NCBI GenBank assembly: GCA_024398055.1
Contig: CP073749.1
Coordinates: 2,666,594 to 2,730,593, forward strand
DNA length: 64,000 bases
Direction: 5' to 3'
Source: a bacterium SCSIO 12741
GTDB taxonomy: Bacteria; Bacteroidota; Bacteroidia; Flavobacteriales_G; Salibacteraceae
The notes below the pieces were generated by a model. The model did not search any database. It worked only from the letters and a program-made list of their open reading frames with translations, and was not told the DNA's origin. Shown in pieces: positions 4,179-29,730 of the stretch. How positions within the stretch are numbered: the first letter of the stretch is position 1; each line of letters begins with the position of its first letter. Made by a program: the position numbers and the translations under genes.

Positions 4179-4294
4179 TTTAAGATTTGCTAATAATTGC
4201 CTGTTGCACTTGGGCTTTTGGATAAAAAGAGCGTTGAATTTATTAAATTCGCTACCCCCTTAATTGCAAATAGAACATTTAGATTTTCAAAAAT

Positions 4295-7470: not shown

Positions 7471-8490
7471 ATGAAAACCACCATTTTAGTACCGATCATT
7501 TTTCTGATCCTCCTGGTTAGTTGTACTCCAGAACCCAATCCTGTGATAGGATATTGGGCTCCGATGGAACCTGAAGCCGATCGAACTCAGATGTCCTACA
7601 ACCGGCTCTTGGTCATTCGTTCCGATAGTTTTATTCATTGGGACTTTAGAGATTGGAATGACTCTACAGAAGAATGGGCTGTGAGATTTCCGGTGCACTG
7701 TTCCTTATCCGACACACAAGCAGTCCTTTTTGGACGGGAGGATACTTCCCTTACGTATAAAATTTCGTGGTTAGGCAAGGATACACTTCAATTGGTAACC
7801 AATACCGAATATCCCGATACTCAGAAACTTCTTCGCATCGAAAGACCGCTACACTCAATTGATACGTCTGATTTAATGGGCAAATGTTTCAGGGTCGAGG
7901 GAGTCAAAGGATTTGTTGATACCCTTGAATTTATTTCCAATAGATTGGCATTTCAACCTACTAAACAAAGAGGGATGGGTTCATTATTATGGTGGGAATT
8001 GGTGGATCGGGATGGACTACCAACTTTTAGAGCTGGAAATTATACAAACCCTTTTTTAGTCTCCTCTTGGACTGAGGATGGTAGGATAAAGCAGGAGTTA
8101 AGAGGATTCCATCATAAGGTTTACTTTTTGGAAGAATTAGATTTAGCAGCAATGCCCGAGTCACTTCATGGAAATTGGGAGGAAGTTGATTTTACCGGAG
8201 TTAGAATACCGCCACCTAATGAGGAGGATTCTACAGATATTCGGTCTGCTCTCGAAATTTCCAAGGACTCAATTCGAATTCGGAAGTTTGGTCATTTCCA
8301 TTCGCGTAAATGGATTTACAGCCAGACAGGACGATTCATTTATTTCCCAGATCGTATGGGTAAAAGCGACGAGGTTTGGGAAGTTGTGGCACAAGATCCA
8401 AACCAAATACTGATCATTAACAACCTTTATGGTACTGCTGGCCTGCTCAGACCAGATACCATTACCTATCGTCTATTAAAAGGAAGTTAA
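7471..8490 (+). CDS. Lipoprotein of unknown function with three lipocalin-like G-x-W modules
   Basis: A 339-residue protein starting MKTTILVPIIFLILLVSC, a type II signal peptide with lipobox LVSC, so it should be lipid-anchored, probably at the outer membrane. ATG 7471 was chosen because the upstream in-frame ATG at 7348 lies inside the preceding gene and buries the signal peptide. The mature part seems to contain three modules, beginning near VIGYWAP, LMGKCFRVEG and LHGNWEEVDF. Each is followed by beta-strand-rich sequence with DSxxxxxF-like strands, which resembles lipocalin-like domains common in Bacteroidota. That reading is an inference. I do not recognise a specific family or function. 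Confidence 0.8.
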   Translation: MKTTILVPIIFLILLVSCTPEPNPVIGYWAPMEPEADRTQMSYNRLLVIRSDSFIHWDFRDWNDSTEEWAVRFPVHCSLSDTQAVLFGREDTSLTYKISWLGKDTLQLVTNTEYPDTQKLLRIERPLHSIDTSDLMGKCFRVEGVKGFVDTLEFISNRLAFQPTKQRGMGSLLWWELVDRDGLPTFRAGNYTNPFLVSSWTEDGRIKQELRGFHHKVYFLEELDLAAMPESLHGNWEEVDFTGVRIPPPNEEDSTDIRSALEISKDSIRIRKFGHFHSRKWIYSQTGRFIYFPDRMGKSDEVWEVVAQDPNQILIINNLYGTAGLLRPDTITYRLLKGS

Positions 8491-8674
8491 GGGGTGAAGC
8501 TTCAACAAGTAGATCGAAACATCAGAATCGCATCTTGCTTCGAATCAAAATAGTCGATGTCCATTACAACATAGTTAAGGCTCAGAACTTTGTTTTTTTC
8601 TTCCTGCTGAAATCCGATAGGTTTAGTCTCAGATCTATAACTAATTCATTTTTCAACTCTTAAATTTTACTTCT

Positions 8675-9316
8675 ATGAGTGATATTAAATACCGTACGAA
8701 TTCGGATATGAGATTTACCTATGCCTCAACCGTGGTTGAATTCGATATTAATAGTCTTATTGATAATTCCAATTACGAGATTGATAGCCAGGGAAAGACC
8801 TTTGATTCGGCTGTGGACAAATTGGTCATTGATGATATTGACAAGACAGTAGATCAAATTGGATTTACGGTCAGGTCAACCTCTGATACGTCATCTCAGG
8901 GTGTGGTTAAATGGTTTAAGGAGGAAACCGGGTATAAAAAGGCCATCTCTCAAGGTGGCGGGGAATGGCCCAAGGAAATGCGATTTGCCCTCAAACCAAC
9001 CGTATACATAGTGGCCATGGACAAGGATACGAAGTATCGGTTTGAATGGGAAGGCCTTACCTTGGGTATGGTCCAAATAGATAAAAAAAGAAAATGGTGG
9101 CTGGCCAGTAAATATGCTTTAACCCTTGCTGATTTGAGAATCCGAGATATCGTAATTCTGGAAGATATGTACCAGGAAATTGTACTTAAAGGGACGGGTG
9201 ATATTATTGATAAACGGGCTCATTTATTTATCACACTCGAAGGGAAGAAGACCTTTCAGGTTAAGTGTGTGATCAATGATATACCGCTTTCTCAGGATTG
9301 GTATAGCAAAATTTAA
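8675..9316 (+). CDS. Hypothetical protein, no recognised family
   Basis: A 213-residue soluble protein without signal peptide or membrane segment. It begins MSDIKYRTNSDMRF and is rich in charged and beta-forming residues. Clusters such as KYRFEWEGLTLGMVQI and AHLFITLEGKKTFQVK suggest a beta-sandwich-like fold. The 184-nt upstream gap contains only a degenerate -7 box (TAGGTTTA near 8618), and no ribosome-binding site is visible. The downstream gene is convergent with a hairpin between. The protein has normal composition and a clean ATG start, so it is probably real, but no function can be proposed. Confidence 0.7.
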   Translation: MSDIKYRTNSDMRFTYASTVVEFDINSLIDNSNYEIDSQGKTFDSAVDKLVIDDIDKTVDQIGFTVRSTSDTSSQGVVKWFKEETGYKKAISQGGGEWPKEMRFALKPTVYIVAMDKDTKYRFEWEGLTLGMVQIDKKRKWWLASKYALTLADLRIRDIVILEDMYQEIVLKGTGDIIDKRAHLFITLEGKKTFQVKCVINDIPLSQDWYSKI

Positions 9317-13876: not shown

Positions 13877-14433
13877 TCGGATTATTGCTTCGATTTTTGT
13901 CGCATCAGGCGGACCTGTTTCGGTCGGGTTGCATGAAAACCTACTACCGACTCAAGTATCCCGGACTCTCCATTGATGGCTCGAGTTATCTGGCCCCAGG
14001 AGTGGAACTGGTTTGCGTGAAGGGATCGCTGATGGTTATTCGTCAAAGTACCTTGGGAAAAGGCAGTCAAATTCGAACCAAAAGAGAAGGCAGGCTTGAA
14101 CTTACGGATTGTGAAGTTGGAGCGTACTGTACCATCGAAGCCATGCAATCCATCACCATTGAAAAAGATACCTTGATTGCCGAACGGGTAACTATTCGGG
14201 ATCAAAACCACCGTTTTGAAGAGGTTGGAAAAAACATTGCCGAACAAGGATTTGATGTGGCGCCGGTCCTCATAAAACCCAACGTGTGGATAGGAGCTGA
14301 AGTGGTTGTTTTGAAAGGAGTAGAAATTGCTTCTGGAACCGTCGTCGGAGCGGGCTCCGTGGTCAATCGATCCTTGCTTGAAAAAGCGGTGTACGCTGGC
14401 AATCCTGCTCAAAAGGTTAAGGAGCTTTCATGA
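13873..14433 (+). CDS. Left-handed beta-helix acyltransferase (hexapeptide family)
   Basis: A 186-residue protein with hexapeptide-type repeats through its middle and C-terminal part, for example the series around KPNVWIGAEVVVLKGVEI and GTVVGAGSVVNRS. These form the trimeric left-handed beta helix of WbbJ/maltose-O-acetyltransferase-like enzymes. The catalytic His is probably in VTIRDQNHRF. Such enzymes O-acetylate sugars from acetyl-CoA. ATG 13873 overlaps the previous stop by ATGA, and its own stop overlaps the next start in the same way, showing tight translational coupling. The likely role is decoration of the surface glycan; the exact acceptor is unknown. Confidence 0.9.
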   Translation: MIGLLLRFLSHQADLFRSGCMKTYYRLKYPGLSIDGSSYLAPGVELVCVKGSLMVIRQSTLGKGSQIRTKREGRLELTDCEVGAYCTIEAMQSITIEKDTLIAERVTIRDQNHRFEEVGKNIAEQGFDVAPVLIKPNVWIGAEVVVLKGVEIASGTVVGAGSVVNRSLLEKAVYAGNPAQKVKELS

Positions 14434-16673: not shown

Positions 16674-17699
16674 ATGGATCTGAAAGACAAATCGATATTG
16701 ATTACCGGTGGTACCGGTTCCCTGGGTAAGTGTTTGGTTGATATGTTGCTGGAAAGGTATCCAGACTTAGGGCGTTTGATCATTTTTTCGAGAGATGAGC
16801 TGAAGCAATTTGAAATGGCGCAGCGTTACCCGATGGATAAGTATCCGCAAATGCGCTACTTCTTAGGAGATATTCGCGATCGTGATCGATTGATTCGAGC
16901 CTTTCAGGGAGTAGATTATGTGATTCATGCGGCCGCATTGAAACAAGTTCCAGCAGCGGAATACAATCCGATGGAGTTTGTAAAAACCAATGTACTGGGA
17001 GCAGAAAATATTATTGAGGCAGCCTTGAGCACCAATGTGAAGCGCATTGTAGCCTTGTCTACCGATAAAGCGGCAGCCCCGATCAATTTGTACGGAGCTA
17101 CCAAGCTGGCTTCTGACAAGTTGTTTGTGGCGGCCAATAACATTCGAGGTTGGAGAGATTTACGTTTTTCTGTGGTTCGCTACGGAAATGTAATGGGTTC
17201 CAGAGGTTCGGTGATTCCATTCTTTTTGAAGAAAAGAGCGGAAGGTGTTTTGCCGATTACAGATCCTGAAATGACCCGATTCAATATCACTTTGCAAGAG
17301 GGTGCCGAATTGGTTCTATATGCGCTCGAAGAAGCCTGGGGTGGAGAAATATTTGTTCCCAAAATTCCATCCTTCCGCATTACCGATTTGGCCCAAGCCA
17401 TCGGACCTGAGTGCGAACATCCGGTAGTCGGAATTCGCCCGGGTGAAAAAATTCATGAAGAAATGATCACGCCTTCTGATTCCTACACCACGGTGGACTT
17501 AGGTAAGTATTATGCGATTTTACCTACGTTGACCAATTGGGATATCAAGGAATATCAGGAAGCTACTCAATACAAGGAAGTCGAAAAAGGATTTACCTAC
17601 AACTCCGGAACCAATGATGAATGGTTGACCGTGGAGCAATTGCGTGAAATGATTGACACCTACGTGGCTCCTGGAGAACTGACCAAGAGTAACGCTTAG
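16674..17699 (+). CDS. pseB: UDP-GlcNAc 4,6-dehydratase (inverting), PseB-type
   Basis: First step of pseudaminic acid synthesis: converts UDP-GlcNAc to the 4-keto-6-deoxy-L-arabino sugar. A 341-residue extended SDR. It has the NAD-binding loop ITGGTGSLGK, the catalytic ALSTDKAAAPINLYGATK (Asp-Lys in DK and Tyr of YxxxK), and the family C-terminus VVGIRPGEKIHEEMI. Its length and the PseI, PseG and PseH neighbours support PseB rather than the longer, membrane-bound CapD/WbpM type or a retaining dehydratase. The usual partner PseC, a PLP aminotransferase, is not next to it; a methyltransferase is there instead. Confidence 0.92.
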   Translation: MDLKDKSILITGGTGSLGKCLVDMLLERYPDLGRLIIFSRDELKQFEMAQRYPMDKYPQMRYFLGDIRDRDRLIRAFQGVDYVIHAAALKQVPAAEYNPMEFVKTNVLGAENIIEAALSTNVKRIVALSTDKAAAPINLYGATKLASDKLFVAANNIRGWRDLRFSVVRYGNVMGSRGSVIPFFLKKRAEGVLPITDPEMTRFNITLQEGAELVLYALEEAWGGEIFVPKIPSFRITDLAQAIGPECEHPVVGIRPGEKIHEEMITPSDSYTTVDLGKYYAILPTLTNWDIKEYQEATQYKEVEKGFTYNSGTNDEWLTVEQLREMIDTYVAPGELTKSNA

Positions 17700-17774
17700 C
17701 CTACCCTCAAAGCACTTTCCATCTGGTGATAGAGGAAGACGGTTTCGGATTGGGGTCAAACAAATAGTTGGGTT

Positions 17775-18386
17775 ATGAATATTCACTTATTCAGGATTAA
17801 GCAACTTGTCAAAAAGATGATTGGTCGCCAAGCAACAAGCCCAAAGGATTTTCTTTTGGAGGCCTTGCCCAAAGGATCTGTTGGAGCCGAGATTGGTACC
17901 TGGAAAGGAGCTTTTGCCGATCGAATGCTGACCATTGTTGAGCCCTCTAAATTGTTTTTAATCGATCCATACCAATACATAGAGAGCTATGAAAACGCCT
18001 GGTATGGCAAGCCCATTGGATCTCAATCCAACATGGATGAGATTTACGATTTTGTAGCAGCTCGATTTGCCGGGCCCATTACCAAAGGGCAGGTGGAAAT
18101 GCTTCGAATGACCTCGGACAAAGCGCTGGAAAAGTTTGAAAATGAATCCCTGGACTGGGTTTACATCGACGGTGATCATTCCTATGAATTTGTTAAACGA
18201 GATTTAGATCATTTCTACGCTAAGGTTAAAGTGGGTGGTTGGATCACCGGGGATGATTACCAGGATGGAAACTGGTGGTCGGATGGAGTTCGAAGGGCCG
18301 TGAACGAATTTGTAGAAGAGAAGGGAGAGCTTCTTGAGCTTCAGGAAATAAAAGAGAATCAATTCAGAATCAAAAAAATTGGATAG
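17775..18386 (+). CDS. Class I SAM-dependent methyltransferase
   Basis: A 203-residue protein with a SAM-binding core: motif I GSVGAEIGTWKGAFADRM, the acidic ribose contact FLIDPYQY, and WVYIDGDHSYEFVKRDLD, followed by GGWITGDDY. This pattern matches the Methyltransf_24/TylF-like group, which O-methylates sugars or small molecules. It lies between pseB and the NeuB-cytidylyltransferase fusion, so methylation of a sugar of the surface glycan is likely but unproven. The upstream 75-nt gap shows no clear promoter. Confidence 0.87.
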   Translation: MNIHLFRIKQLVKKMIGRQATSPKDFLLEALPKGSVGAEIGTWKGAFADRMLTIVEPSKLFLIDPYQYIESYENAWYGKPIGSQSNMDEIYDFVAARFAGPITKGQVEMLRMTSDKALEKFENESLDWVYIDGDHSYEFVKRDLDHFYAKVKVGGWITGDDYQDGNWWSDGVRRAVNEFVEEKGELLELQEIKENQFRIKKIG

Positions 18387-18390
18387 TCTG

Positions 18391-20175
18391 ATGAAAAATC
18401 CGGCTTACACGCTGCTGGAAGTAGCCAATACGCACGGGGGAGATCCCGAAAAAGTAATCCAGCTCATTCAGGAATTCGAAGATGTTCAGGAAAACGTGGG
18501 CATCAAGTTTCAGGTACTTAAGGACGATCGTATCGCCCTACCTGATTATTCCTGGTTTGACGTCTACACCAAGTTGTGTTTCTCCGAAGAAGATTGGGGA
18601 AGGCTGATAACCGAAGCCCAGAAAACCAAAGAAGTTTGGTTAGATCTGTTCGACAGCTATGGTACCGAAATTCTGGGAAAGTACCTGGATCAAATTACCG
18701 GCATTAAATTGCAGGCATCCGTGCTTCAAAATCTGGAAATTAGAAAAGGATTGCAACAGTTGGATGTTTCTTCCCTGAAGCTGATTCTCAATGTGGCTGC
18801 CATGGAAGAAGACGAGGTAGAGTCCATTTTACAGGCCTTTGAAGGTCAATTTGGGTTTAAGGAAATCATCCTACAAGTTGGTTTTCAGGCCTATCCTACA
18901 GAATTGGCTGACTCAGGCTTGGGAAAGATTCCTAAACTTCAAGATTTGACAGGTAAAACTATTGCCTTCGCCGACCATGTAGATGCGCAGTCAGAAGACG
19001 CCGTTTGGTTGCCCGTAATGGCTGCTATGCAAGGTGCAGGAATCGTAGAAAAACACATTAGAAGTTCCCATTACGAACCCGAGTACGATGGATTCTCATC
19101 CGTAGGAAAAACTCAGATTCTGAAAATCAGAGAGCAACTTGGACGTTATGGACACTTACTTCAGGAGCCCTTTATTAATGAGCGGGAGCAGAATTACCTG
19201 AAGACCACCCTTCAGATTCCTGTATTGGAAAACAGCAAAGATTCAGGAGATTTAGTTGACTTGGATCGCGATTTGAAATACCGCCGAACCGGCCAAGAAG
19301 GAATTTCCAGAAAAGACATTCAAGAGCACCAGGCCAAGGGAGAAATACTGGCTAAAGATTTGGACGCCGACAGTACCCTAAGCAACGACGTGTGGAGAAA
19401 AGCTAAAGTGGGGGTGATTGTAGCTTGTCGATTGAAATCATCTCGCTTGAAAAGAAAGGCAGTTGAGAAGATTGGTCAGTGGCCATCCGTAGAATACTGC
19501 CTAAAAAATGCCTTGCGATTCAAGGGCGTAGATGAAGTTGTGTTGGCAACCTCCACCGCTGATGAAGATGCCGAGCTCGAGAATCATACCTACTCTGATG
19601 AAGTTCATTTTTTTAAGGGCCATCCTGACGATGTGATTCAACGATTTTTGGATGCTGCCGAGCAACATAGCATTGACGTAATCATCCGGGTTACCGCCGA
19701 TATGCCGTATATCTCTGATGAGATTTTGCAACCCTTGCTCAAAAAGCATTTTGAAACCGGCGCTGATTATACCGTAGGGAAAGATGCGGCAGTAGGAACC
19801 AATTTAGAGATTATCAATACCAGTGCATTGAAGAGGGTGAGAAAACACTTCCCATTTGCCGAGTATTCCGAATACATGACCTGGTATTTTCAGAATAACC
19901 CCGAACACTTTAATCTTCAATTCGTAGAGTTACCTGCCGATTTGGTAAGGCATTACCGACTCACTCTGGATTATCCGGAAGATTTGGACATGTTTAACGC
20001 CATTGAAGAGCGTTTTGCTGAGCATCCTGAGTTTTCCTTGCGGGAATTAATTGACTTCTTGGATCGAACACCAGAAGTTGCTCAAATCAATGCTCACTGC
20101 GCTTTGGTTTATAAAACCGATCAGAGTTTGATCGATACCCTCAATCAAAAAACGCGTATTTCGGTTCATGAATAA
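18391..20175 (+). CDS. NeuB-like / SAF-like / cytidylyltransferase fusion (probable CMP-pseudaminic acid synthetase)
   Basis: A 594-residue fusion. Residues 1-255 resemble the NeuB/PseI TIM barrel: EVANTHGGDPEK, GIKFQVL (PEP-site Lys), FADHVDAQ and VEKHIR. The sequence is divergent: the strand KLQASVLQN takes the place of KIASFEITD, so the conserved catalytic Glu seems to be missing, and AYPTE replaces the CTSSYPAP motif. Residues about 285-330 (EGISRKDIQEHQAKGEILAKDL) look like the SAF/antifreeze-like domain. Residues 338-594 are an SpsF/NeuA-type cytidylyltransferase (GVIVACRLKSSRLKRKAV, VVLATSTADEDAEL, VIIRVTADMPYIS), which would activate the nonulosonic acid with CTP (PseF role). ATG 18391 is preferred over TTG 18379. 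Its end overlaps the pseG-pseH fusion. Confidence 0.82.
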   Translation: MKNPAYTLLEVANTHGGDPEKVIQLIQEFEDVQENVGIKFQVLKDDRIALPDYSWFDVYTKLCFSEEDWGRLITEAQKTKEVWLDLFDSYGTEILGKYLDQITGIKLQASVLQNLEIRKGLQQLDVSSLKLILNVAAMEEDEVESILQAFEGQFGFKEIILQVGFQAYPTELADSGLGKIPKLQDLTGKTIAFADHVDAQSEDAVWLPVMAAMQGAGIVEKHIRSSHYEPEYDGFSSVGKTQILKIREQLGRYGHLLQEPFINEREQNYLKTTLQIPVLENSKDSGDLVDLDRDLKYRRTGQEGISRKDIQEHQAKGEILAKDLDADSTLSNDVWRKAKVGVIVACRLKSSRLKRKAVEKIGQWPSVEYCLKNALRFKGVDEVVLATSTADEDAELENHTYSDEVHFFKGHPDDVIQRFLDAAEQHSIDVIIRVTADMPYISDEILQPLLKKHFETGADYTVGKDAAVGTNLEIINTSALKRVRKHFPFAEYSEYMTWYFQNNPEHFNLQFVELPADLVRHYRLTLDYPEDLDMFNAIEERFAEHPEFSLRELIDFLDRTPEVAQINAHCALVYKTDQSLIDTLNQKTRISVHE

Positions 20176-21613
20176 GCCAAGAATTCTTTTTCAAGTAGAG
20201 GGCGGTGCTCAAACCGGATACGGCCATATTAGCCGTTGTACGGCTCTTGCCGGTTACCTGAAAGAGGATTTCGATTGTCATTTTTTGCTTCCCGTTGAAA
20301 CCCGGGAACGCTTATCGCTTTTCGGAACGGATCAATATCACATTCATTGGACCGAGAATAGTGCTTACTCCTTGGAAGAACTAAAGCTTCTCGCCGTTGA
20401 AGGAGACCTACTGGTGGTAGATGGTTATTCCTACGACCGGGCGTATTTTGAATCACTACGACCCCTCGGTGTAACCTCGGTAAGGATCGATGATTACTAC
20501 CAAGACTATTCGGCCGATGCGATCATTAACCCATCTCCAGCTGCCACACGGGGTAAATATCCGGCTATGCCTTATCGGGCTTATGCCGTGGGAGCCGCTT
20601 ACGCTATGCTGCGTCCCGCCTTTTTTGAGGCTAAACCAGTAGAGGTGGATGCTCGAACTTTACTCGTTTGTTTAGGGGGGAGCGATGCTCGTTTTTCGGC
20701 TCATTTGATTGAAATGCTGCAATCCGTTGGGGGATTTGATCGCATTACCTGGTTGGGATATTTGAGTGAGGATAGTAGAGCGAAACTCGACGAACTGAAC
20801 GAATGGAAGCATGTTGCGCAAGCCAATGCCCATGAAATGGTGAACCTGATGACCCGTCATGAGTACGGTTTATTCTCGGCGGGAACACTTGCCTTAGAAG
20901 CCTGTACGGTAGGGATTCCCATGTTGCTTTTGCAATACGTAGAGAATCAAAAAGAAAACTACCGCAAAATAGTAGAGGAGAAGGCGGCCGTTGGAATTGG
21001 AACTCCTGAAACCCTGGACAGAGAAGTACTTCAAAAATCCTTTGATGAACTCAAGGGGCAGAAACAACAGGTCGAGTTTCAAAAAAAGCTGATGGACGCC
21101 CACCCACCCACCCGATTCAGAAAGCTCTTTAACTACCTCCACCTCACAAAATCAATTACCCTCCGTCAAGCCAGCGAAAAGGACGTAGACCTATTCTACC
21201 AATGGGCAAACGACCCGGATACCCGGCAAAATTCAACCCAATCAGAGCCTATACCTTACCCAACTCATGTATCTTGGTTCGCTTCCAAAATTAGGGATGT
21301 GAATACTCGTATTTACGTCTTTGAGCACCCTGGCGGACCCGTTGGTTACCTGCGTTTGGAACAGCGAGAAGGTCATTGGTTGATTAGTTATGCCATGGAT
21401 CCGGAGTTCAGAGGAAAGGGGCTTGGAAAGTTTTTGATCGGTAGAGGAATGACTGAATTTATAGAGGAGAAACAGGATGCCAGCCTGGTCTTTCATGCCT
21501 GGGTAAAAAAATCGAATTTGGCCTCTGCGGTGACTTTTAAAAACTGCAATTTTGACAATCTAAAAGAGGTGAATCTCGAAGGCGTGACCTACGACATTTT
21601 TATATGGAAGTAA
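20168..21613 (+). CDS. PseG-PseH fusion: UDP-sugar hydrolase plus N-acetyltransferase
   Basis: A 481-residue two-domain enzyme. Residues 1-325 are PseG, a GT-B-like hydrolase that removes UDP from the 2,4-diacetamido-trideoxy-altrose. Its catalytic His is H20 in GAQTGYGHISRC, and the C-terminal half has FSAGTLALEACTVGIPMLLL. Residues about 328-481 are a GNAT domain (SITLRQASEKDVDLFYQW, YAMDPEFRGKGLGKFLIG with the acetyl-CoA loop), matching PseH, which acetylates the 4-amino group just before PseG acts. The fusion thus joins consecutive steps. It overlaps both neighbours by 8-10 nt. Confidence 0.9.
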   Translation: MNKPRILFQVEGGAQTGYGHISRCTALAGYLKEDFDCHFLLPVETRERLSLFGTDQYHIHWTENSAYSLEELKLLAVEGDLLVVDGYSYDRAYFESLRPLGVTSVRIDDYYQDYSADAIINPSPAATRGKYPAMPYRAYAVGAAYAMLRPAFFEAKPVEVDARTLLVCLGGSDARFSAHLIEMLQSVGGFDRITWLGYLSEDSRAKLDELNEWKHVAQANAHEMVNLMTRHEYGLFSAGTLALEACTVGIPMLLLQYVENQKENYRKIVEEKAAVGIGTPETLDREVLQKSFDELKGQKQQVEFQKKLMDAHPPTRFRKLFNYLHLTKSITLRQASEKDVDLFYQWANDPDTRQNSTQSEPIPYPTHVSWFASKIRDVNTRIYVFEHPGGPVGYLRLEQREGHWLISYAMDPEFRGKGLGKFLIGRGMTEFIEEKQDASLVFHAWVKKSNLASAVTFKNCNFDNLKEVNLEGVTYDIFIWK

Positions 21614-22680
21614 CCCACTCAGATATTCGCATTGGACCCGATCGAATTCATGACGATGCTCCCGTTTGGATCATTGCTGAATTATCGGCCAATCATGCTG
21701 GCAGGCTGGATGTAGCACTTGAAACCGTGCGTGCGGCTAAGCGTGCCGGTGCCAATGCCATTAAGCTACAGACCTACCGAGCCGATACCATTACGCTGAA
21801 CGTTAAGAATGAACACTTCAAAATCGATCAAGGTACCGTGTGGGATGGTAGATACCTCTACGATTTGTATGAGGAAGCCCACACACCTTGGGAATGGCAC
21901 AAGGCTTTGTTTGATGAAGCTCAGAAGGAGGGCTTAGTTTGTCTATCCTCGCCCTTCGATCCCACAGCTGTGGATTTGCTCGAAGAGTTGAATTGTCCAG
22001 CCTACAAAATTGCGTCCTTCGAGATTACCGATATTCCGTTGATTGAATACGTGGCCTCGAAGGGAAAGCCCGTCATCATTTCCACCGGCATTGCCGATGA
22101 TCAGGATATTCAACGAGCCTTGGAGGCGTGTAAAAAGCAGGGTAATCATCAGATCGTTTTGTTGAAATGCACCTCCTCCTATCCCGCTCCCATCGAAAAG
22201 GCCAACTTGGCTATGATCCCCGATATGAGAAATCGTTTTGGGGTGCTAACCGGTCTCTCCGATCATACCTTGGGTACAGCGGTTCCTGTGGTTGCCACTT
22301 CACTGGGTGCACGGGTAATTGAAAAGCATTTTATCCTCGACAAAAATCTGGGTGGACCCGATGCCGGATTTTCGCTCGATGAGCAGGAATTTTCCGAAAT
22401 GGTCAAAGCCGTAAGGCTGGCCGAAAGTGCATTGGGCAAGGTAGATTACTCCCTGGATGAGGGAAAAATAAATAGCCGGGCATTTAGCCGATCGCTCTTT
22501 GTAACCCGCCGGGTAGAAGCAGGCGAAACCATTGGTCCGGAAAATATCAAATCCGTTCGTCCCGGGTACGGGATGCATCCCAGGTATTGGGATGTTTTGA
22601 TCGGAAAGAAATTTAATACAGCCGTGGAGGCAGGAACTCCGCTTAAGGCTGAAATGGTAGAAGGATTTAGAGAAGAATGA
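21604..22680 (+). CDS. pseI: Pseudaminic acid synthase
   Basis: Condenses 6-deoxy-AltdiNAc with phosphoenolpyruvate to form pseudaminic acid. The protein has 358 residues. The NeuB barrel has ELSANHAGRLDVAL, AIKLQTYRADTITL, LYEEAHTPWEWHK, KIASFEITDIPLIE (catalytic Glu), CTSSYPAP, GLSDHTLGTAVP and VIEKHF. The C-terminal SAF domain has RSLFVTRRVEAGETI and GMHPRYWD. The HTPWEWHK stretch and TITLNVKNEHFKI are typical of PseI rather than NeuB or LegI. It overlaps the preceding fusion by 10 nt and the hisH-like gene by ATGA. Confidence 0.95.
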   Translation: MEVTHSDIRIGPDRIHDDAPVWIIAELSANHAGRLDVALETVRAAKRAGANAIKLQTYRADTITLNVKNEHFKIDQGTVWDGRYLYDLYEEAHTPWEWHKALFDEAQKEGLVCLSSPFDPTAVDLLEELNCPAYKIASFEITDIPLIEYVASKGKPVIISTGIADDQDIQRALEACKKQGNHQIVLLKCTSSYPAPIEKANLAMIPDMRNRFGVLTGLSDHTLGTAVPVVATSLGARVIEKHFILDKNLGGPDAGFSLDEQEFSEMVKAVRLAESALGKVDYSLDEGKINSRAFSRSLFVTRRVEAGETIGPENIKSVRPGYGMHPRYWDVLIGKKFNTAVEAGTPLKAEMVEGFREE

Positions 22681-23288
22681 TCGGAATTATCAATTATGGA
22701 ATGGGCAATTTGGCCTCCGTCCTCAATGGCTTAAAAGCTTTGGAATTGGATGCCGAGATTGTGGACAACCCAAATGATCTTGATCGATACGAGCGGTTGA
22801 TCCTTCCTGGTGTTGGGGCTTTTAAGCAGGCCATGGATAATTTACGAGAATCCGGATTCAAAACAGCCCTAGATGCTATTGTGGAGAAAGGCGATAAACC
22901 TTTGTTGGGAATTTGCCTGGGCATGCAATTGCTTTTTGAGAAAAGCTTCGAACATGGCGAAAACACCGGATTAGGCTACATTCCGGGTGAGGTACTTCCC
23001 TTCGGAGATCAGGTGAAAAATCACCGGATTCCTCATGTGGGGTGGAACACCGTTTACCCCCAATCCGGTTCTCGATTACTTCCTGAACAAGCCGAAGACT
23101 TTTACTTCGTTCATTCCTTTTACTGCCACCCGACCGGGGATGAAGAGCAAAAAGGAATGACCGAATACGAAATAAAATTTTGCTCAGTAGTGGAGCATGG
23201 TCAGGTATTTGGGGCCCAATTTCACCCCGAAAAAAGCCAGAAACACGGACTTCAATTGCTAAAAAAATTCGCCGAACTTCCATGCTGA
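22677..23288 (+). CDS. hisH: HisH-like glutamine amidotransferase subunit
   Basis: A class I glutaminase of 203 residues that releases ammonia from glutamine. The nucleophile elbow is GICLGMQLLFE, and the triad is completed by FHPEKSQKHG. The N-terminus IGIINYGMGNLASV is standard for HisH. No histidine-biosynthesis genes lie nearby. Its position between pseI and the HisF-like and sugar amidotransferase genes indicates that it supplies ammonia for an acetamidino group on a nonulosonic acid, as HisH2 does with HisF2 and WbpG in P. aeruginosa B-band LPS. Coupled to pseI by ATGA. Confidence 0.92.
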   Translation: MIGIINYGMGNLASVLNGLKALELDAEIVDNPNDLDRYERLILPGVGAFKQAMDNLRESGFKTALDAIVEKGDKPLLGICLGMQLLFEKSFEHGENTGLGYIPGEVLPFGDQVKNHRIPHVGWNTVYPQSGSRLLPEQAEDFYFVHSFYCHPTGDEEQKGMTEYEIKFCSVVEHGQVFGAQFHPEKSQKHGLQLLKKFAELPC

Positions 23289-24070
23289 AAAAACGACTGA
23301 TACCGGCTCTTTTTATCAAAAATGGACTTATTGTTAGAAGTGAGAATTTCGACTATCACCAGTTCATTGGAAGCGTGGTGCATGAGGCGAAACGCTACAG
23401 TGATTGGGACGTAGACGAGCTGGTTTACATCGACATCAGCCGGGAAAAGGAGTACGATCTCCGTCGTGATGATTACAACCTGGATGCTTACTATAGCATG
23501 GAAGAAATCATTCGGAAAATTGCTGAGGTTTGTTTTATGCCCTTAGCCTTTGGTGGTGGAATCCGAAACCTATCCGATGTGGATTTGAGAATTCGCAACG
23601 GAGCTGATAAAATTATTCTGAATACCGGTGCCTACGAAACTCCCGAACTGATTGGGCAAACAGCCTCCAAATACGGATCGCAATGTGTGATCGTTTCGGT
23701 CGATTACCGCATGGTAGATGGAAAGGATCAGGTTTTTACCTCCTTCGGAACTCATGCCACCGGATTGACCGTAAACGAATGGATCAGTCGCTGTGAGCAG
23801 GAAGGGGCGGGTGAAATCTTTTTGAATGCCATTGATCGAGATGGAAAGGGCAATGGATATGATATTGAAACCATCGAATCTGCGGTGGAAAGCACCAAAT
23901 TGCCCGTGATAGCATGTGGCGGTGCAGCCGACGAATTTGATTTTCAGGAGTTGGCCGAAGAAGTAGAAAACCTTTCAGGAATTGCAGCAGGAAATCTCTT
24001 TCATTTTACTGAAAGAAGTTATCCGAGAGCCAAGAAATACCTGAAGGAAAATGGAATTAACGTACGATAA
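23282..24070 (+). CDS. hisF: HisF-like ammonia-channelling subunit for sugar amidation
   Basis: A 262-residue TIM barrel of the HisF family. ATG 23282 (MLKKRLIPALFIKNG) overlaps the hisH stop by 7 nt; the longer ORF start at 23180 lies inside hisH. In true HisF the first strand reads IPCLD, with a catalytic Asp; here it is IPALFIKNG, so that Asp is lost. The second half keeps VIVSVDYRM and LNAIDRDGKGNGYD and the phosphate-site loop VIACGGAA. This pattern fits HisF2-type proteins, which serve as ammonia conduits for an N-acetyl sugar amidotransferase and do not make imidazole glycerol phosphate. Confidence 0.9.
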   Translation: MLKKRLIPALFIKNGLIVRSENFDYHQFIGSVVHEAKRYSDWDVDELVYIDISREKEYDLRRDDYNLDAYYSMEEIIRKIAEVCFMPLAFGGGIRNLSDVDLRIRNGADKIILNTGAYETPELIGQTASKYGSQCVIVSVDYRMVDGKDQVFTSFGTHATGLTVNEWISRCEQEGAGEIFLNAIDRDGKGNGYDIETIESAVESTKLPVIACGGAADEFDFQELAEEVENLSGIAAGNLFHFTERSYPRAKKYLKENGINVR

Positions 24071-24082
24071 ACGAAGAAATAG

Positions 24083-25297
24083 ATGATTGCAACAATCCCT
24101 CAAATCAATTACTGCAAAAAATGTCTTTTGCCTTCCAGCTCCGCCATTCCTGTGGCTTTTGATGATCATGGAGTATGTTCGGCCTGTAGAACCTCCAAGG
24201 AGAAGGAAGCCATTGATTGGGACAGACGATTGAAAAAATTTCAACGCATTCTGGAGCAATACCGAAGCAAGGATGGAAGCAATTACGATTGCATTATTCC
24301 CGTGAGTGGAGGGAAAGACAGCTTCTTCCAGGTTCATCAGGTAAAAAATGAGATGGGATTCAATCCTTTGCTGGTGACCTACAACAGCAACAACTACACT
24401 CCTACTGGACTTAAAAACCTTCAGCGGATGAGGGACGTTTTCGGTTGTGATCATGTCTTTTTCACTACCAGTGTGCATACCCTTCAAAAGCTCAATCGGA
24501 TTTCGGTTCAAATCATGGGTGATACACAATGGCATTACCAAAGTGGGATTTTTACCTATCCCTTTCAGGTAGCTGTACAGATGAATATTCCACTGCTGAT
24601 TTGGGGAGAGCACGGCCACATGGATATTGGAGGAATGCACTCTTACAATGATTTCGTTGAGTTTACTTATCGCTATCGTCACGAACACATTTTACGTGGC
24701 TTTGAGTGGACCGATTTTATGGCAAAGGCTGCCGAGTACGGCGAGACCCTTGAACGCCGTGAAATGATTCCATTTGTATACCCAAGCGATGAAGAAATTG
24801 ATCGGGTAGGGGTTAGAGGTATCTACATGGCCAACTTCGTTAAGTGGGAGGCCAACGAACACGGCCCTCTGATGATGGAAAAATATGGCTGGTTAGAAAA
24901 CGAAGAGCCTTTTGAAAGAACCTACCGTCGTATGTCGAACCTCGACGATTTCTACGAAAACGGAATTCACGACTACCTCAAGTTTATCAAGTTTGGTTAC
25001 GGTCGGGCAACCGATCACGCCTGTAAGGATATCCGGGCTGGAAAAATGACCCGTGAAGAGGGCATCAAGATCATTCAGCAGATGGACCATGTGAAAAGCA
25101 AGGACGTTTATCAATGGCTTGACTTTGTTGGCTGGACCGAAGAACAATTCGATCATTTGGCCGATACTTACCGCGATCCAAGAGTATGGTGGATACGAGA
25201 TGGGCAATGGCACAAGATGGATATTACCGGAGAACCAACGGCCTATGGTAAAGTTCATTTGACTCCCGAAGAGCAACAGAAATACGTTAGAGCTTAA
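24083..25297 (+). CDS. N-acetyl sugar amidotransferase (WbpG/PseA family)
   Basis: A 404-residue PP-loop ATPase that converts an N-acetyl group on a sugar into an acetamidino group, using ammonia from the HisH/HisF pair. The N-terminal zinc-ribbon-like cysteines are CKKCLLPSS and GVCSACR. The pyrophosphate loop is IIPVSGGKDSFFQVHQ. Other conserved stretches are LLIWGEHGHMDIGGM and KFGYGRATDHACKDIR. In this setting the substrate is probably pseudaminic acid or its precursor (PseA role, giving a Pse5Ac7Am-type sugar). A legionaminic or mannuronic substrate is less likely because PseI and PseB are present. Ends with TAATG coupling to the next gene. Confidence 0.9.
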   Translation: MIATIPQINYCKKCLLPSSSAIPVAFDDHGVCSACRTSKEKEAIDWDRRLKKFQRILEQYRSKDGSNYDCIIPVSGGKDSFFQVHQVKNEMGFNPLLVTYNSNNYTPTGLKNLQRMRDVFGCDHVFFTTSVHTLQKLNRISVQIMGDTQWHYQSGIFTYPFQVAVQMNIPLLIWGEHGHMDIGGMHSYNDFVEFTYRYRHEHILRGFEWTDFMAKAAEYGETLERREMIPFVYPSDEEIDRVGVRGIYMANFVKWEANEHGPLMMEKYGWLENEEPFERTYRRMSNLDDFYENGIHDYLKFIKFGYGRATDHACKDIRAGKMTREEGIKIIQQMDHVKSKDVYQWLDFVGWTEEQFDHLADTYRDPRVWWIRDGQWHKMDITGEPTAYGKVHLTPEEQQKYVRA

Positions 25298-26496
25298 TGG
25301 TAGCAAAACCCAAAATCTTATTGGTTTGGGGATATCATCGATCTGGGTGGAATAAGCCCTTCTTCGATTTAAGGGATGAATTTGAATTTCATTACCTCTT
25401 CAAAAAGTTTCCTGATAAGGAAGATGAGAGGTTTGATTTCAACATTCGGTATTGGTCTGAGTTTTCTTCTGCTTCGGAGGTTATTGAGGAGATAAAGCCC
25501 GATAAGGTGCTTTTTATGTCCATTCATTCACCGTACAGCATTTCGCTAAATCAGGCCTGTAAGAGACGGGGCATTACGACTTTTTTCTTTCAACATGGTA
25601 TTGAATCCAACATGGATTTTTACCTCAAACTGGAGCGAAATACCTCCAAAAAGAAAGATGCGCAAATCAGCTCATCCCACAGTTCAAGCGAGCAGAGTGA
25701 TCCCAAGCATGCCCTTCGATTTTTGTGGAATTCCGTTGGTATTGTAACCTTTATCAAGTCCATTCGCCTGGAGCTTTTGACCCGTAAAATGAACGGGCAT
25801 CTGGCACTTCATCGAATGCTTTTCTCTGCCAGAGTAGCCGATTATTACCTGGTTTATACCCGCTTTAATGGCCAGCTTCATGTTGACCGTGACGGCGTTC
25901 AGGAAGATCGAATGTTATCCACAGGTATTCCGGAAATTGATCCCTATTTTGAACAGAATTTTCAGGCGTCCGAGAACTACTACCTGCTCATTGATCAACC
26001 CCTTTCCGATAACGATACCTATGGAATTAGTGGTTTTGGAATTAGCGAACAAGACCATGCCCGGATGTACTCCAAGCTCAATGATTTTTGCCTGAGCCGA
26101 GGGGCACGATTGAAAATTAAATTGCACCCGGATAATTACCGAAGCAAACGCATATTTGAGCACGAAAACACCGACTATTTAACCCATTCGGATCCCATGC
26201 CGCTGATTCTAAAAAGTAAGGCCTGCTTTGGCACGCTTAGCACTTTGATGATTCCGGCAGCCTACTTTAAAAAGGTTTACGTGCTCACCTTTTATGACTT
26301 GCCCTTGCAAAAAGACCTACTGCGCAGTGGTCTCATGAAGGGGCTGGATTTCTTTACGTTTGAACCAGAAGATATCCAGTTCGACACATTTTCGCGCACC
26401 GAAGAAATCCTAAGTCAATTTGTTGACCAATATTTGTATCAAGCCGATGGTAAATCGCATCGGCGATTAGCAGAATATCTAAAAAATGTCACTTAA
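25297..26496 (+). CDS. Polysialyltransferase-like glycosyltransferase, candidate Pse transferase
   Basis: A 399-residue protein without signal peptide. It begins with a beta strand ILLVWGYHRSGWNKPFF. Its C-terminal half contains RLKIKLHPDNYRSK, the K-x-HP motif typical of GT-B sialyl- and polysialyltransferases and CDP-glycerol-type transferases. This is followed by KACFGTLSTLMIPAAYF, resembling the conserved S-S/T-x-x loop that contacts CMP. A serine-rich low-complexity insert lies near residue 128 (SSSHSSSEQS). It directly follows the pseudaminic-acid genes (start overlaps the previous stop), so transfer of the CMP-activated sugar is a reasonable inference. Family assignment is only moderately secure. 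Confidence 0.6.
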   Translation: MVAKPKILLVWGYHRSGWNKPFFDLRDEFEFHYLFKKFPDKEDERFDFNIRYWSEFSSASEVIEEIKPDKVLFMSIHSPYSISLNQACKRRGITTFFFQHGIESNMDFYLKLERNTSKKKDAQISSSHSSSEQSDPKHALRFLWNSVGIVTFIKSIRLELLTRKMNGHLALHRMLFSARVADYYLVYTRFNGQLHVDRDGVQEDRMLSTGIPEIDPYFEQNFQASENYYLLIDQPLSDNDTYGISGFGISEQDHARMYSKLNDFCLSRGARLKIKLHPDNYRSKRIFEHENTDYLTHSDPMPLILKSKACFGTLSTLMIPAAYFKKVYVLTFYDLPLQKDLLRSGLMKGLDFFTFEPEDIQFDTFSRTEEILSQFVDQYLYQADGKSHRRLAEYLKNVT

Positions 26497-27286
26497 GAAC
26501 CACATCAGTAATTGGATTCAGGCCTCACCCTGGATTCGTGGATCGCGACTCTATTACAAGCTTCAGCGTTACCGATTGTACAAGGATTGTCAGATTGATT
26601 ATTCCTTGACCAAGGATCACGAATTACTGAAAACCTTAGAAAAAGATGGGCTCGCTTTCATTCCCAATTTCCTACCCGACGATCAAATAGATCAATTGGC
26701 TAAGGAATCCATGGAAATGCTTGAGCTGGCCGAAAAGGATCAGTATCCAGGCTATTTCCAAAATGGGGCCCTGCAGTCTGTTCGCATAGGTCGGGTAGAT
26801 CAGAATAGTGAGCTGGCCAAGCGAGTATTTTACGATGATGCTAGAATTCAGGACCTGGCCAAGGCTTATGTTTCTAAAAAGGTAAAATCATCGAGACGTG
26901 AGGTAGATTTTAAGCTGACTCCCGGAGCAGTGGCCGATGCTGATATGGCTCACTTTGACGACTGGCGGCAACGGTTTAAAGCCTTTTTATTCCTCACCGA
27001 TGTAGGTCCCGAAAATGGCCCTATGAATTATTGGAAAGGGAGCCACATTCCCAAACCTTGGATGCTGCGCTATTTCCGTGAATACGACAGAGATGGTGGC
27101 TACGGACGATTTGGTCATTTCTTTGAACAGGAGATGCTAAAAATATGTGAGGAAAACGGCTATGAAAAACATAGCTGTACCGGAAAAAAAGGCACCTTGC
27201 TTCTGGCGGACTTTAGAGGCTTACACAGCAGTACTCCTTTGATTTCAGGTCGTCGATTGATCATGGGCCAAGTCTTTGAAATGTAA
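26486..27286 (+). CDS. Phytanoyl-CoA dioxygenase (PhyH)-family protein
   Basis: A 266-residue Fe(II)/2-oxoglutarate oxygenase. The double-stranded beta-helix carries the metal motif HxD at residues 156-158 (ADMAHFDDWRQRFKAFLFL). The second His and the Arg that binds 2-oxoglutarate are in RGLHSSTPLISGRR. The sequence DVGPENGPMNYWKGSH is the usual PhyH strand. Family members hydroxylate lipids, small molecules and occasionally sugars. Its place inside the glycan operon (11-nt overlap upstream, 18 nt before the flippase) suggests that it modifies a glycan or lipid precursor. The substrate is unknown. Confidence 0.88.
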   Translation: MSLKNHISNWIQASPWIRGSRLYYKLQRYRLYKDCQIDYSLTKDHELLKTLEKDGLAFIPNFLPDDQIDQLAKESMEMLELAEKDQYPGYFQNGALQSVRIGRVDQNSELAKRVFYDDARIQDLAKAYVSKKVKSSRREVDFKLTPGAVADADMAHFDDWRQRFKAFLFLTDVGPENGPMNYWKGSHIPKPWMLRYFREYDRDGGYGRFGHFFEQEMLKICEENGYEKHSCTGKKGTLLLADFRGLHSSTPLISGRRLIMGQVFEM

Positions 27287-27304
27287 AGTTTCCGATTCGC
27301 TGTA

Positions 27305-28783
27305 TTGAACGATAAAGCATCCATACTAAAGGCTTCCAGCATTTATATTATCCTGGGTTTTTTACCCATGGGAATTAATTTTTTGTTGGCTCCCTTATAC
27401 TCCATATACCTCGCTCCCGATGAATATGGAATCATAGGGCTGGCGGACATTTTTAATGGCTTTGTGGCCGTCTTGTTGTCTCTGGGAATTAAGCAGGCCT
27501 ATGCCCGTTTTTTCTTTGACTATTACAAGAAGCCTAAGGACTTGAATGCCCTTTTTACAACCTCTCTGTTTTGGATGTTGTCCATGTTTGGCATCGTAGC
27601 AGTGGTCCTCTATTTTGTGGGAGATTGGTTGTTTGGGATAAGCTTTAATAGCCCTGGGTTTTCCTACTCCAAATTTGGCTGGCTCATTCTCCTTTCCACC
27701 AACTTTACCTTGATCAATGAACTGTTTTTGAGCCACTATCGAAACCAAGAGAATGTGAAGGCCTATGGTATGCTTTCTTTGGGCTTTTTTCTCACCAATT
27801 TAGTGTGCATTTTGGGCGGTGTGGTTTGGTTGGAATATGGTGCCATGGGAAACATTGCAGGACGTGCCATTGGTTCAACTGCATTTATGGTTTTGGCCAT
27901 TTTGGTTTACCTGTTTCGAAATGGAATTCATATCCACTTCAAGTTTATCAAGCCCATGCTTGAATATGGCCTGCCGCTCATTCCCTATTCCCTGCTCCTG
28001 GTGGCCTACAACAAGATTGATCGGATCATGATCGATCAGTTTTTTGACCTCGATGCATTAGGGAGATACAACTTTGCTTTTTTGATGGGGACGGCCATAT
28101 CTGTGGTTCAATATTCGGTGTACAATGCCATCAACCCCCGGTTGTTTAAGTTGCTATCCGAAAAGGGGGAGGGCTATCAAAAAGAGGTGAGTCAGATTCA
28201 CCAGGTTTTTCAGCTTTTTATGATGGCTATTATTGTGATGGCCATAGCCGTTGCAATTCCCATACTTCAATTGCTTATTGATCCTAAGTACTTCCCAATC
28301 GGGGAGTATATCGGCTTACTTTTTCTGTTCTACTTTGCGCAGAATTTTTACATCATTTACACCCTTCCATTGTTTTATTACAAGCGAACCAAGGTCATGC
28401 CTTTTATTAGTTTAATTGCATTGGTTGGAGGCGTTATTTTTAACCTCGTTCTCATTCCTCCTTTTGGAATTTTGGGAGTTTGTTTTGCCGTGATATTTAC
28501 CAAGTATACCCAATTGGGCGGAGCCTTATTCTTCAATCGGGTTTATGACTACCACAAGCTTCCTTTGTTTGGCTTGACCAAAAATGTTTACGCGGTAGCC
28601 TTCATTACGCTGAGTTACATCGGAGTTTATTTGTTCCTTCAGTTTACCGAGGCGGAATTGTCGTACATGTGGTTGAATTTTTTACCCCTTGTTTTGTTTG
28701 GTTTAATGGCGGTATCGGTATTCAATCGGCAAATCTCCAAGGTGTTGGTTCTAATTCGGGAAACCCTAAAAGGGATGGCCTAA
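27305..28783 (+). CDS. Wzx-like oligosaccharide flippase (MOP superfamily)
   Basis: A 492-residue integral membrane protein with about 12-14 hydrophobic helices, as in Wzx/RfbX polysaccharide transporters. Helix 1 contains IYIILGFLPMGINFLLAPL, followed by the conserved LAPDEYGIIGLADIF region (family pattern L..xEYGxxxL). It moves the lipid-linked repeat unit from the cytoplasmic to the periplasmic face. TTG 27305 is the only start near the preceding stop; no better ATG gives a complete first helix. Its presence indicates a Wzx/Wzy-type pathway for this locus rather than an ABC-exported polymer. Confidence 0.92.
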   Translation: MNDKASILKASSIYIILGFLPMGINFLLAPLYSIYLAPDEYGIIGLADIFNGFVAVLLSLGIKQAYARFFFDYYKKPKDLNALFTTSLFWMLSMFGIVAVVLYFVGDWLFGISFNSPGFSYSKFGWLILLSTNFTLINELFLSHYRNQENVKAYGMLSLGFFLTNLVCILGGVVWLEYGAMGNIAGRAIGSTAFMVLAILVYLFRNGIHIHFKFIKPMLEYGLPLIPYSLLLVAYNKIDRIMIDQFFDLDALGRYNFAFLMGTAISVVQYSVYNAINPRLFKLLSEKGEGYQKEVSQIHQVFQLFMMAIIVMAIAVAIPILQLLIDPKYFPIGEYIGLLFLFYFAQNFYIIYTLPLFYYKRTKVMPFISLIALVGGVIFNLVLIPPFGILGVCFAVIFTKYTQLGGALFFNRVYDYHKLPLFGLTKNVYAVAFITLSYIGVYLFLQFTEAELSYMWLNFLPLVLFGLMAVSVFNRQISKVLVLIRETLKGMA

Positions 28784-28796
28784 ATTTGCCCAGAAT

Positions 28797-29730
28797 ATGA
28801 AACAAAAACTGCTTGGAATCTATCTTGCTGTTCACCGCCTTTTTAGAACAGCTATTCCTTACAAATCGAATCAGGCCTTTTTTCTATTCGGTTTTCCCCG
28901 GGGTGGAACCACCTGGATTTCGGAAGTACTTTCCAATGATTCCAAAACAGTGGTCGTTTATGAGCCTTTAGGAGCTTATTTAAAGCCGATCGTTGAAATG
29001 GGATACCGTCGGTTCGAAAAGCCGAAAACGGCCCCGCAAATGCGCCTGGTGACCTATTTTAATTCGTTGGTCAAGGGACGGGCATTCATGCCGGAGTGCT
29101 GTTGAAGAAAGATTCTCGTAAAGTTTTTCAATCTACCCGGGTGTTGATCAAGTTTATCAAAGGCATGCAACTCGTAGATTGGTTTTGCTCGCATTTCTCT
29201 CCGGAAAGCACCTTGATTATTCTCCGACATCCTGGGGCAGTGGTGTCTTCTCAACTGCTTTACATGAAAGGGAAAGAGGCTCAGTTTTTTCACCATTCCA
29301 TTCATGCCCGCAACCATCGGAGGCCGGTTACGCTAATCCACAAGGGGAAGAATTGGTACTTTCTACGGCTGTCGAGAAGTTGGCCTACACCTACGCTATT
29401 GGAGCAGAAGAAGCCTTAAAGGCCATCCGCAATTACCCGAATGTAAACTGGTTGGTGTACGAAGAAATGGTGTTGAATCCAGAAAAAACCATGACCGATT
29501 TACAGGGTAAGCTCGAATTGCCATTTTCCTTTGATTCGTCTACGCTCAAGCGTCCAAGTTCCACGGTTACGGCCAATTCTGCGGTTCAATCCGGGAATAG
29601 TCAATTGGAAAAATGGAAACAACATCTCAACGAGGAAGACTGGAAATCCATTCAAAGAGTATTGGCTGCTTTTGATTTGGATCAGTTATACCTCAATCCA
29701 CAAACCTTTAATCACAAAATGGTACGGTGA
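28797..29730 (+). pseudogene. Sulfotransferase, disrupted by two apparent one-base losses
   Basis: Three overlapping frames together make one sulfotransferase of about 311 residues. Frame A (28797 to about 29090) has the PAPS loop FFLFGFPRGGTTWISEVL and ends in an early stop at 29103. Frame B (about 29090-29300) continues with VFQSTRVLIKFIKG and the 3'-phosphate motif TLIILRHPGAVVSSQLL. Frame C (about 29300-29730) gives TAVEKLAYTYAIGAEEAL and VNWLVYEEMVLNPEKTM. Each switch is a -1 step, so each needs one added base. The first lies between 29075 and 29095 (two GGG runs), the second between 29268 and 29327; neither could be placed exactly. It may be a real pseudogene or a consensus error. GTGA overlap with the next gene. 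Confidence 0.85.

Follow-up and report, generated by a model that had tools for sequence, protein, structure and literature searches.

A candidate CMP-nonulosonate transferase with an x-H-G loop beside pseudaminic acid genes in the Bacteroidota bacterium SCSIO 12741

We describe a gene of the Bacteroidota bacterium SCSIO 12741 that is a candidate for a cytidine monophosphate (CMP)-nonulosonate transferase, and whose product in this locus probably transfers an amidinated pseudaminic acid (Pse). It lies at 25297-26496 on the forward strand of the window, by which we mean the whole stretch of 64,000 nucleotides that was analysed (contig CP073749.1, positions 2,666,594 to 2,730,593), and it codes for 399 residues. 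The assignment is well supported by genomic context and moderately by sequence, since the protein matches the Pfam family PF07388 above its cut-off, synthase and cytidylyltransferase genes lie nearby, and the order of profile-profile scores points the same way. The complete reading, in which the donor is an acetamidino derivative of CMP-Pse, we regard as likely. The argument is built on the open reading frame (ORF), its motifs, the Pfam match, the predicted glycosyltransferase fold of the GT-B type and the gene neighbourhoods.

Results

Sequence family

A reading of the letters alone (the sequence-only reading) had taken the protein for a CMP-Pse transferase of the HP-motif sialyl- or polysialyltransferase type and for the candidate of a new family. 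The ORF and its overlap with the stop codon of the preceding amidotransferase gene hold: the ATG at 25297-25299 shares one base with the TAA at 25295-25297, and at the 3' end the gene overlaps the next one, which starts at 26486. PF07388 (polysialyltransferase) is matched with 40.9 bits, above its gathering cut-off of 23.3, and the cytidine diphosphate (CDP)-glycerol transferase family PF04464 with 16.4 bits, below its cut-off of 22.1. These two alone were listed at E up to 10, with no model of GT29, GT42, GT52, GT80 or pfam05855, in a search whose filters drop weak matches. PF07388 was matched at E up to 1 by 13 of the 15 aligned members described below, the window protein included. Since Pfam already places the protein in PF07388, it is by this measure not an unclaimed family. 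No description of this transferase group was found in the literature searched, most subscription papers lying outside that search.

Comparisons of hidden Markov models (HMM-HMM) gave probabilities that are low in absolute terms and of which the order alone is used. Eight mixed polysialyltransferase-like proteins, taken as one set, ranked first (50.1%, E 1.6e-4, over 68 columns that surround the HP motif), followed by E. coli KpsS (20.2%, E 0.0011, 244 columns by hhalign), NeuS (7.2%), KpsC (3.8% by hhalign), a first TagF-like protein (2.2%), NeuC (1.5%) and a second TagF-like protein (0.5%), and, at 0.0%, three proteins of the window that are putative GT4 members. The BFO_1060 family (NF046086), whose name suggested a T. 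forsythia Pse transferase, was tried and dropped: it gave 20 bits against a cut-off of 200, its best stretch being residues 364-398, and its model matches 62 of 198 phylum genomes, in 8 of them above the cut-off, and is hence uninformative.

Motifs and putative catalytic residues

Our alignment has 15 rows from 14 loci; both copies of locus L022 are included, and the truncated L021 and the later-found L064 are left out. R15, P68, H100-G101, G210 and I274-P278 are among its invariant positions, and D233 is nearly invariant. The K-x-HP motif noticed earlier is indeed present, as I-K-L-H-P at residues 274-278 (26116-26130, forward strand); since none of the 15 rows departs from it and L021 and the distant L064 have it too, it is more than a chance occurrence. 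The M. haemolytica polysialyltransferase (MhPST) has the same motif, carrying LVEEGTGTY, IKLHPKER and IASTSL. In that enzyme, according to PMC5517516, E153 of the EEG loop is the base, the HP histidine H291 stabilises the CMP leaving group, K289 contacts the cytosine, and S339/T340 contact the phosphate. The I-K-L-H-P of the window protein may make the corresponding cytosine and phosphate contacts, with S315-T316 (26239-26244, forward strand) as the putative phosphate-contacting pair; the Ser-Ser/Thr motif is found in the aligned members, in register or one column off.

The second motif is where the HP-motif assignment stood only in part. According to PMC2169525, D/E-D/E-G and HP are the motifs common to GT38, GT52 and GT80, the former holding the catalytic base, and GT42 is without both. 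D/E-D/E-G is missing here: 15 of 15 rows have x-H-G, as do L021 and L064, and the window protein has Q-H-G (residues 99-101, 25591-25599, forward strand). In the predicted model this loop sits between strand 94-98 and helix 106-119, and PMC5517516 places the catalytic loop of MhPST between strand 5 and helix 5a. Because of this strand and helix position, and because hhalign sets the EEG of E. coli KpsS against QHG, we take the loop to be the same element as the D/E-D/E-G loop. By analogy, H100 would be the catalytic base, a histidine replacing an acidic residue. Histidine bases are found in GT29 and GT42.

Another PF07388 protein, at 1375-2547 on the reverse strand of locus L025, carries E-H-G; its neighbours are a sugar dehydratase-like gene and an ORF that, by reading, resembles a NeuA-type cytidylyltransferase. 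The x-H-G change is therefore not unique to this clade, and other PF07388 proteins may also have exchanged the acidic residue for a histidine.

Relation to known transferases

With GT38 (PF07388; M. haemolytica SiaD, 5wc6/5wcn, and E. coli NeuS) the transferase shares the GT-B fold (as predicted), IKLHP, the Ser-Thr phosphate motif, the Pfam match and a neighbouring neuB-type synthase. It differs in having Q-H-G for the catalytic E-E-G and in the pathways beside it and its relatives, which point to Pse, legionaminic acid (Leg) and Kdn; moreover, sequence searches of the PDB, with the single sequence or the 15-row profile, gave no meaningful match, the solved GT38 structures included. We place the protein in the HP-motif architecture, but D/E-D/E-G is absent, so we do not call the protein a GT38 member. 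The T. forsythia transferases of Pse or Leg derivatives, for which PMC6388019 gives knock-out evidence and HP and D/E-D/E-G motifs, are a further comparison. GtfS / TFUB4_00887 shares the Bacteroidota origin, the HP motif and a CMP-Pse or CMP-Leg derivative as donor, the latter known from the knock-outs there, and differs in the D/E-D/E-G reported for it, the comparison being by description only.

We also considered a retaining transferase of the KpsC/KpsS/KpsS1 kind (GT99/107/118), which would use CMP-Pse via an enzyme-bound intermediate. KpsS1 of Acinetobacter baumannii (GT118), a relative of KpsC/KpsS, is a known retaining Pse transferase with a YE-motif Glu as its proposed base, as described in PMC12887879. 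Compared by that description only, it would have in common with our protein the Pse donor and a cytidine-activated sugar acid, and the hhalign alignment with KpsS is longer than that of the polysialyltransferase-like set. The EEG loop of KpsS is nevertheless QHG here, and the higher HMM-HMM probability belongs to the polysialyltransferase-like set, in a comparison that had KpsC and KpsS in it and KpsS1 itself outside; we consider such an enzyme very unlikely.

Predicted structure

AlphaFold2, run on the 15-row alignment, gave a confident GT-B model with a mean local confidence (pLDDT) of 84.8 and a predicted template modelling score (pTM) of 0.85; the C-terminal half alone reached a pLDDT of 86.7. 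The serine-rich insert, said earlier to separate the two halves, is instead inside the N-terminal domain, at about residues 119-133 (25651-25695, forward strand), between helices 106-119 and 136-146, and with a pLDDT below 50 and gap-rich, poorly conserved columns it is probably disordered.

The model identifies the predicted fold as GT-B and nothing finer, as neither TagF nor the uridine diphosphate N-acetylglucosamine (UDP-GlcNAc) 2-epimerases are separated from the transferase. With the whole model, Foldseek matched TagF (3l7j, E 7.2e-10) and the polysialyltransferase (5wcn, E 7.6e-10, TM 0.43/0.44), unrelated GT-B enzymes scoring alike, and the polysialyltransferase stood at ranks 7 and 50 among the best 50 rows listed. 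VIA-align gave four effectively tied scores, for a UDP-GlcNAc 2-epimerase-type protein (Z 19.1, 4.1 A, 309 aligned), TagF 3l7k (Z 18.8, 4.0 A, 313 residues), TarL (Z 18.3, 4.1 A, 310) and a capsule multienzyme (Z 18.2, 4.4 A, 322). TarL was the top Foldseek match of the C-terminal half, again in a generic GT-B list. UDP-GlcNAc 2-epimerases, TagF/TarL and antibiotic glycosyltransferases lead the structure lists of both the whole model and this half; the polysialyltransferase was not among the matches listed by VIA-align or for the C-terminal half, which excludes nothing.

These matches bring in another explanation, that of a TagF/TarL-like polyol-phosphate transferase with CDP-glycerol or CDP-ribitol as the donor, which would also account for x-H-G and a cytidine-binding half. 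TagF has a catalytic histidine (one PDB entry bears the label H444N), and the wall teichoic acid enzymes TagF/TarL (PF04464) share with our protein the GT-B type, the H-G loop and a similar predicted fold, the CDP-activated donor being their own; the TagF-like proteins of L052, L053 and L055 carry F/W-H-G. The sequence-only reading had said that it would be refuted if the structure clearly matched a CDP-glycerol enzyme. The Z of 18.8 for TagF, tied with about 19 for the UDP-GlcNAc 2-epimerases, is neither clearly such a match nor evidence against one. On the other side, the transferase stays below the PF04464 cut-off, TagF-like proteins stand low in its HMM-HMM order, and PF04464 is unmatched in its own genome at E 0.001. 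The three PF04464 proteins that were read have K/R-L-H with no following P, and thus no K-x-HP. CDP-polyol genes were not seen nearby, the CDP-glycerol cytidylyltransferase signature being absent in 15 loci, a weak test with a single pattern, and the neighbouring genes make CMP-nonulosonates instead. We consider the TagF/TarL-like explanation highly improbable.

Relatives and NeuB neighbourhood

The transferase is present once in its own genome (5.1 Mb, one contig). A class-wide sample held relatives in 6 of 395 genomes with the single sequence (E 1e-5) and in 7 of 390 with the profile (E 1e-10), the own genome included each time, and a phylum-wide sample in 2 of 395. A genome-contig collection gave 0 loci with the single sequence and 12 with the alignment profile, and plasmid, phage and viral collections gave no relatives at the limits used. 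The 12 titled records of relatives carry names that we take to be of Bacteroidota lineages.

In 12 of 16 distinct loci, a gene of the NeuB family lies no more than 10 kb from the transferase; in 8 of those 12, two genes or fewer stand between them. As a control, the PF00534 glycosyltransferase domains of six of the genomes concerned were counted by hand, and 11 out of 104 lie that close to NeuB (Fisher p 1.6e-7 against 12 of 16); ten loci of the 16 come from genomes beyond these six, and, related sequences not being independent, this and the other neighbourhood p values are indicative only. L012, L014 and L019 are repeats of L007, L008 and L009, and each pair entered the count once; L021, which has a decayed N-terminus and as NeuB a 141-residue piece only, was counted as a NeuB locus, and L022, with its two transferase copies, as a single locus. 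The loci taken to be without NeuB are four: L015, whose upstream side is cut by a contig end, L011, where NeuB lies at 11.4 kb, L010 and L007. The sixteenth locus, L064, came from the profile search, in which neighbouring genes played no part, and its member has no match to the window protein at E 1e-6; there the transferase directly follows neuB and neuA homologues. Cytidylyltransferases and NeuB-family synthases adjoin the transferase in unrelated loci, and a Wzx-like ORF is found in 8 of 16, the window and seven others.

In L022 the two copies (3185-4420 and 7814-9019) are divergent members of one cluster, possibly for two donors or positions. In L030, another PF07388 protein comes directly after an ORF that, by reading, resembles the same amidotransferase type (31-1263 and 1441-2481), and the pairing of amidotransferase and PF07388 may be wider than this clade.

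Donor sugar

As a CMP-Pse transferase, the protein kept the part of its earlier description that makes it a CMP-nonulosonate transferase; a family specific for Pse is not favoured. Co-occurrence with PseI in other genomes had been proposed as a check, and a synthase that matches PseI best was found in the window only and in 0 of 15 other loci (queries were the window PseI and the L009 synthase). By similarity and reading, LegB and LegC homologues are present in L009, L020 and L023, LegB being confirmed in L020 (504.9 bits against 475). KDN-9-phosphatase was matched with 256-263 bits against a cut-off of 180 in all four genes tested, in L008, L013, L016 and L017. Because relatives lie in Leg and Kdn loci and no other synthase is PseI-best, these sequences do not support a Pse-specific family, and Pse as the donor is read from the window locus alone.

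The four Kdn-type loci share a cassette of a cytidylyltransferase, a NeuB-family synthase, KDN-9-phosphatase and then the transferase, which predicts Kdn on surface glycans.

In the tree, the four Kdn-type members and one contig-end member come together (87/86, open fork), and L020 and L023 pair (100/100). The members of L009 and L010, both beside HisF/HisH/amidotransferase sets, also pair (100/100), and that of L011, also beside an amidination set, groups with one L022 copy instead, so that amidination is not tied to a single clade. Such grouping is the pattern expected of donor switching within one family, of which 15 rows are not proof. The amidination set adjoins the transferase in 4 of 16 loci (the window, L009, L010 and L011), and this position suggests that the donor in these loci is an acetamidino derivative; one such form, Pse5Am7Ac, is reported for C. 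jejuni in PMC3068675. Thus the donor of the transferase group probably follows the local pathway, and is here probably acetamidino-pseudaminic acid.

Neighbouring genes in the window

That nonulosonic acid genes directly precede the transferase was confirmed; all the genes listed from 16674 to 28783 are on the forward strand. Immediately upstream is a WbuX/PseA-type N-acetyl sugar amidotransferase (24083-25297; TIGR03573, 339.5 bits against 203.2), and before it a HisF/WbuZ-type subunit (23282-24070; TIGR03572, 233.8 bits, below its cut-off of 299.7), the HisH-type glutaminase of the amidination set (22677-23288; TIGR01855, 221.3 bits against 105.4) and the Pse synthase PseI (21604-22680; TIGR03586, 502.5 bits against 340.25). 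Further up are a PseG-like hydrolase fused to a PseH-like acetyltransferase (20168-21613; TIGR03590, 126 bits with a cut-off of 153.55, and TIGR03585, 27 bits with a cut-off of 93.1; GNAT domains), a divergent NeuB-like domain fused to a cytidylyltransferase (18379-20175; PF02348, 83.6 bits, and PF03102, 36.2 bits), a methyltransferase, and a PseB homologue (16674-17699; TIGR03589, 519.4 bits against 407.75). Downstream, a PhyH-type dioxygenase (26486-27286; PF05721, 43.8 bits against 22) overlaps the transferase stop codon and may act on the sugar or on its acyl group to modify it, and a Wzx-type flippase follows (27305-28783; PF13440, 59.5 bits against 23). Seven of the eight junctions from 17775 to 27286 overlap and the eighth is a gap of 12 bases, with start codons assigned mechanically, which suggests that these genes form one operon. 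Three short ORFs at 28797-29730, which overlap one another and lie in different frames, resemble, by reading, fragments of one sulfotransferase-like gene; Pfam gave no match for the two that were scanned.

The fusion at 18379-20175, which coexists with the separate full PseI, has a counterpart in L023 (8155-9955), where the same pair stands as two genes directly before the transferase. It raises the possibility of a CMP-nonulosonate transferase whose donor is not Pse and whose acid is made by this second NeuB-like domain. No CMP-sugar synthetase other than this fusion was recognised in the window cluster, the L023 arrangement fits such a role, and PseC was not found in the cluster or among the strongest aminotransferases of the genome. 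PseB and PseI are nevertheless above their cut-offs in the same gene run and the NeuB-like domain matches weakly, with 36 bits; we think a donor of this kind unlikely.

Discussion

We propose that the transferase is a cytoplasmic GT-B enzyme that would move a nonulosonic acid from a CMP donor onto a lipid-linked glycan, which a Wzx-type flippase would export after the transfer. For the window locus we consider an acetamidino derivative of CMP-pseudaminic acid the most likely donor. CMP would be bound in the C-terminal domain by K275 and H277 of K-x-HP together with S315/T316, as it is by K289, H291 and S339/T340 in MhPST; the N-terminal domain would give the base, with H100 in the role of the MhPST E153, and the reaction would be a direct displacement with inversion. 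What we infer from the observations above is the nature of the donor and the acceptor, the point in the export pathway at which the enzyme acts, the base and the stereochemistry.

Several points weigh against this proposal. UDP-GlcNAc 2-epimerases and TagF/TarL rank at least as high as the polysialyltransferase in the structure searches, and the HMM-HMM scores are low overall, the best covering just 68 columns. Within the six control genomes alone, the transferase is near NeuB in 3 of 6 loci against 11 of 104 control domains (p 0.027), and at genome level NeuB is present in 6 of 6 genomes found by the single sequence against 89 of 164 class genomes, about 0.026 by chance, which is weak alone. 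L007 has no NeuB on the 20 kb read, the only NeuB of that genome being on another contig; the same holds for the only NeuB of the L010 genome, where the downstream side is cut and the visible upstream side has HisF, HisH, the amidotransferase and then unrelated genes, with no NeuB. In the pathway itself, the PseG and PseH domains of 20168-21613 are both below their cut-offs, a weak point, and no PseC is seen in the window cluster. Elsewhere in the genome, the three strongest single DegT-type aminotransferase matches to PseC give 243, 207 and 186 bits, or 44-57% of the cut-off of 423.5, in a scan that left out a two-piece candidate at 85751-86908 of the genome. Finally, the cluster has other putative glycosyltransferases at 14430 and 15448, and either could be the Pse transferase instead.

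Beyond this locus, we tentatively put forward, as somewhat short of an even chance, that the group is a family of Bacteroidota enzymes, separate from the D/E-D/E-G families, that transfer nonulosonic acids from CMP donors with inversion. In it, an invariant His-Gly loop would have taken the place of the acidic base, and subclades would have switched donors (acetamidino-Pse, Leg and Kdn) together with the neighbouring synthases. Few transferases are known for pseudaminic, legionaminic and bacterial Kdn sugars, and this hampers glycan engineering and the reading of surface-sugar clusters. A group that sits beside all three pathways offers a comparative set in which the motifs are shared and the predicted donors differ. 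Its x-H-G loop poses a testable question, namely whether enzymes of the HP-motif sialyltransferase architecture can work with a histidine in place of the acidic base.

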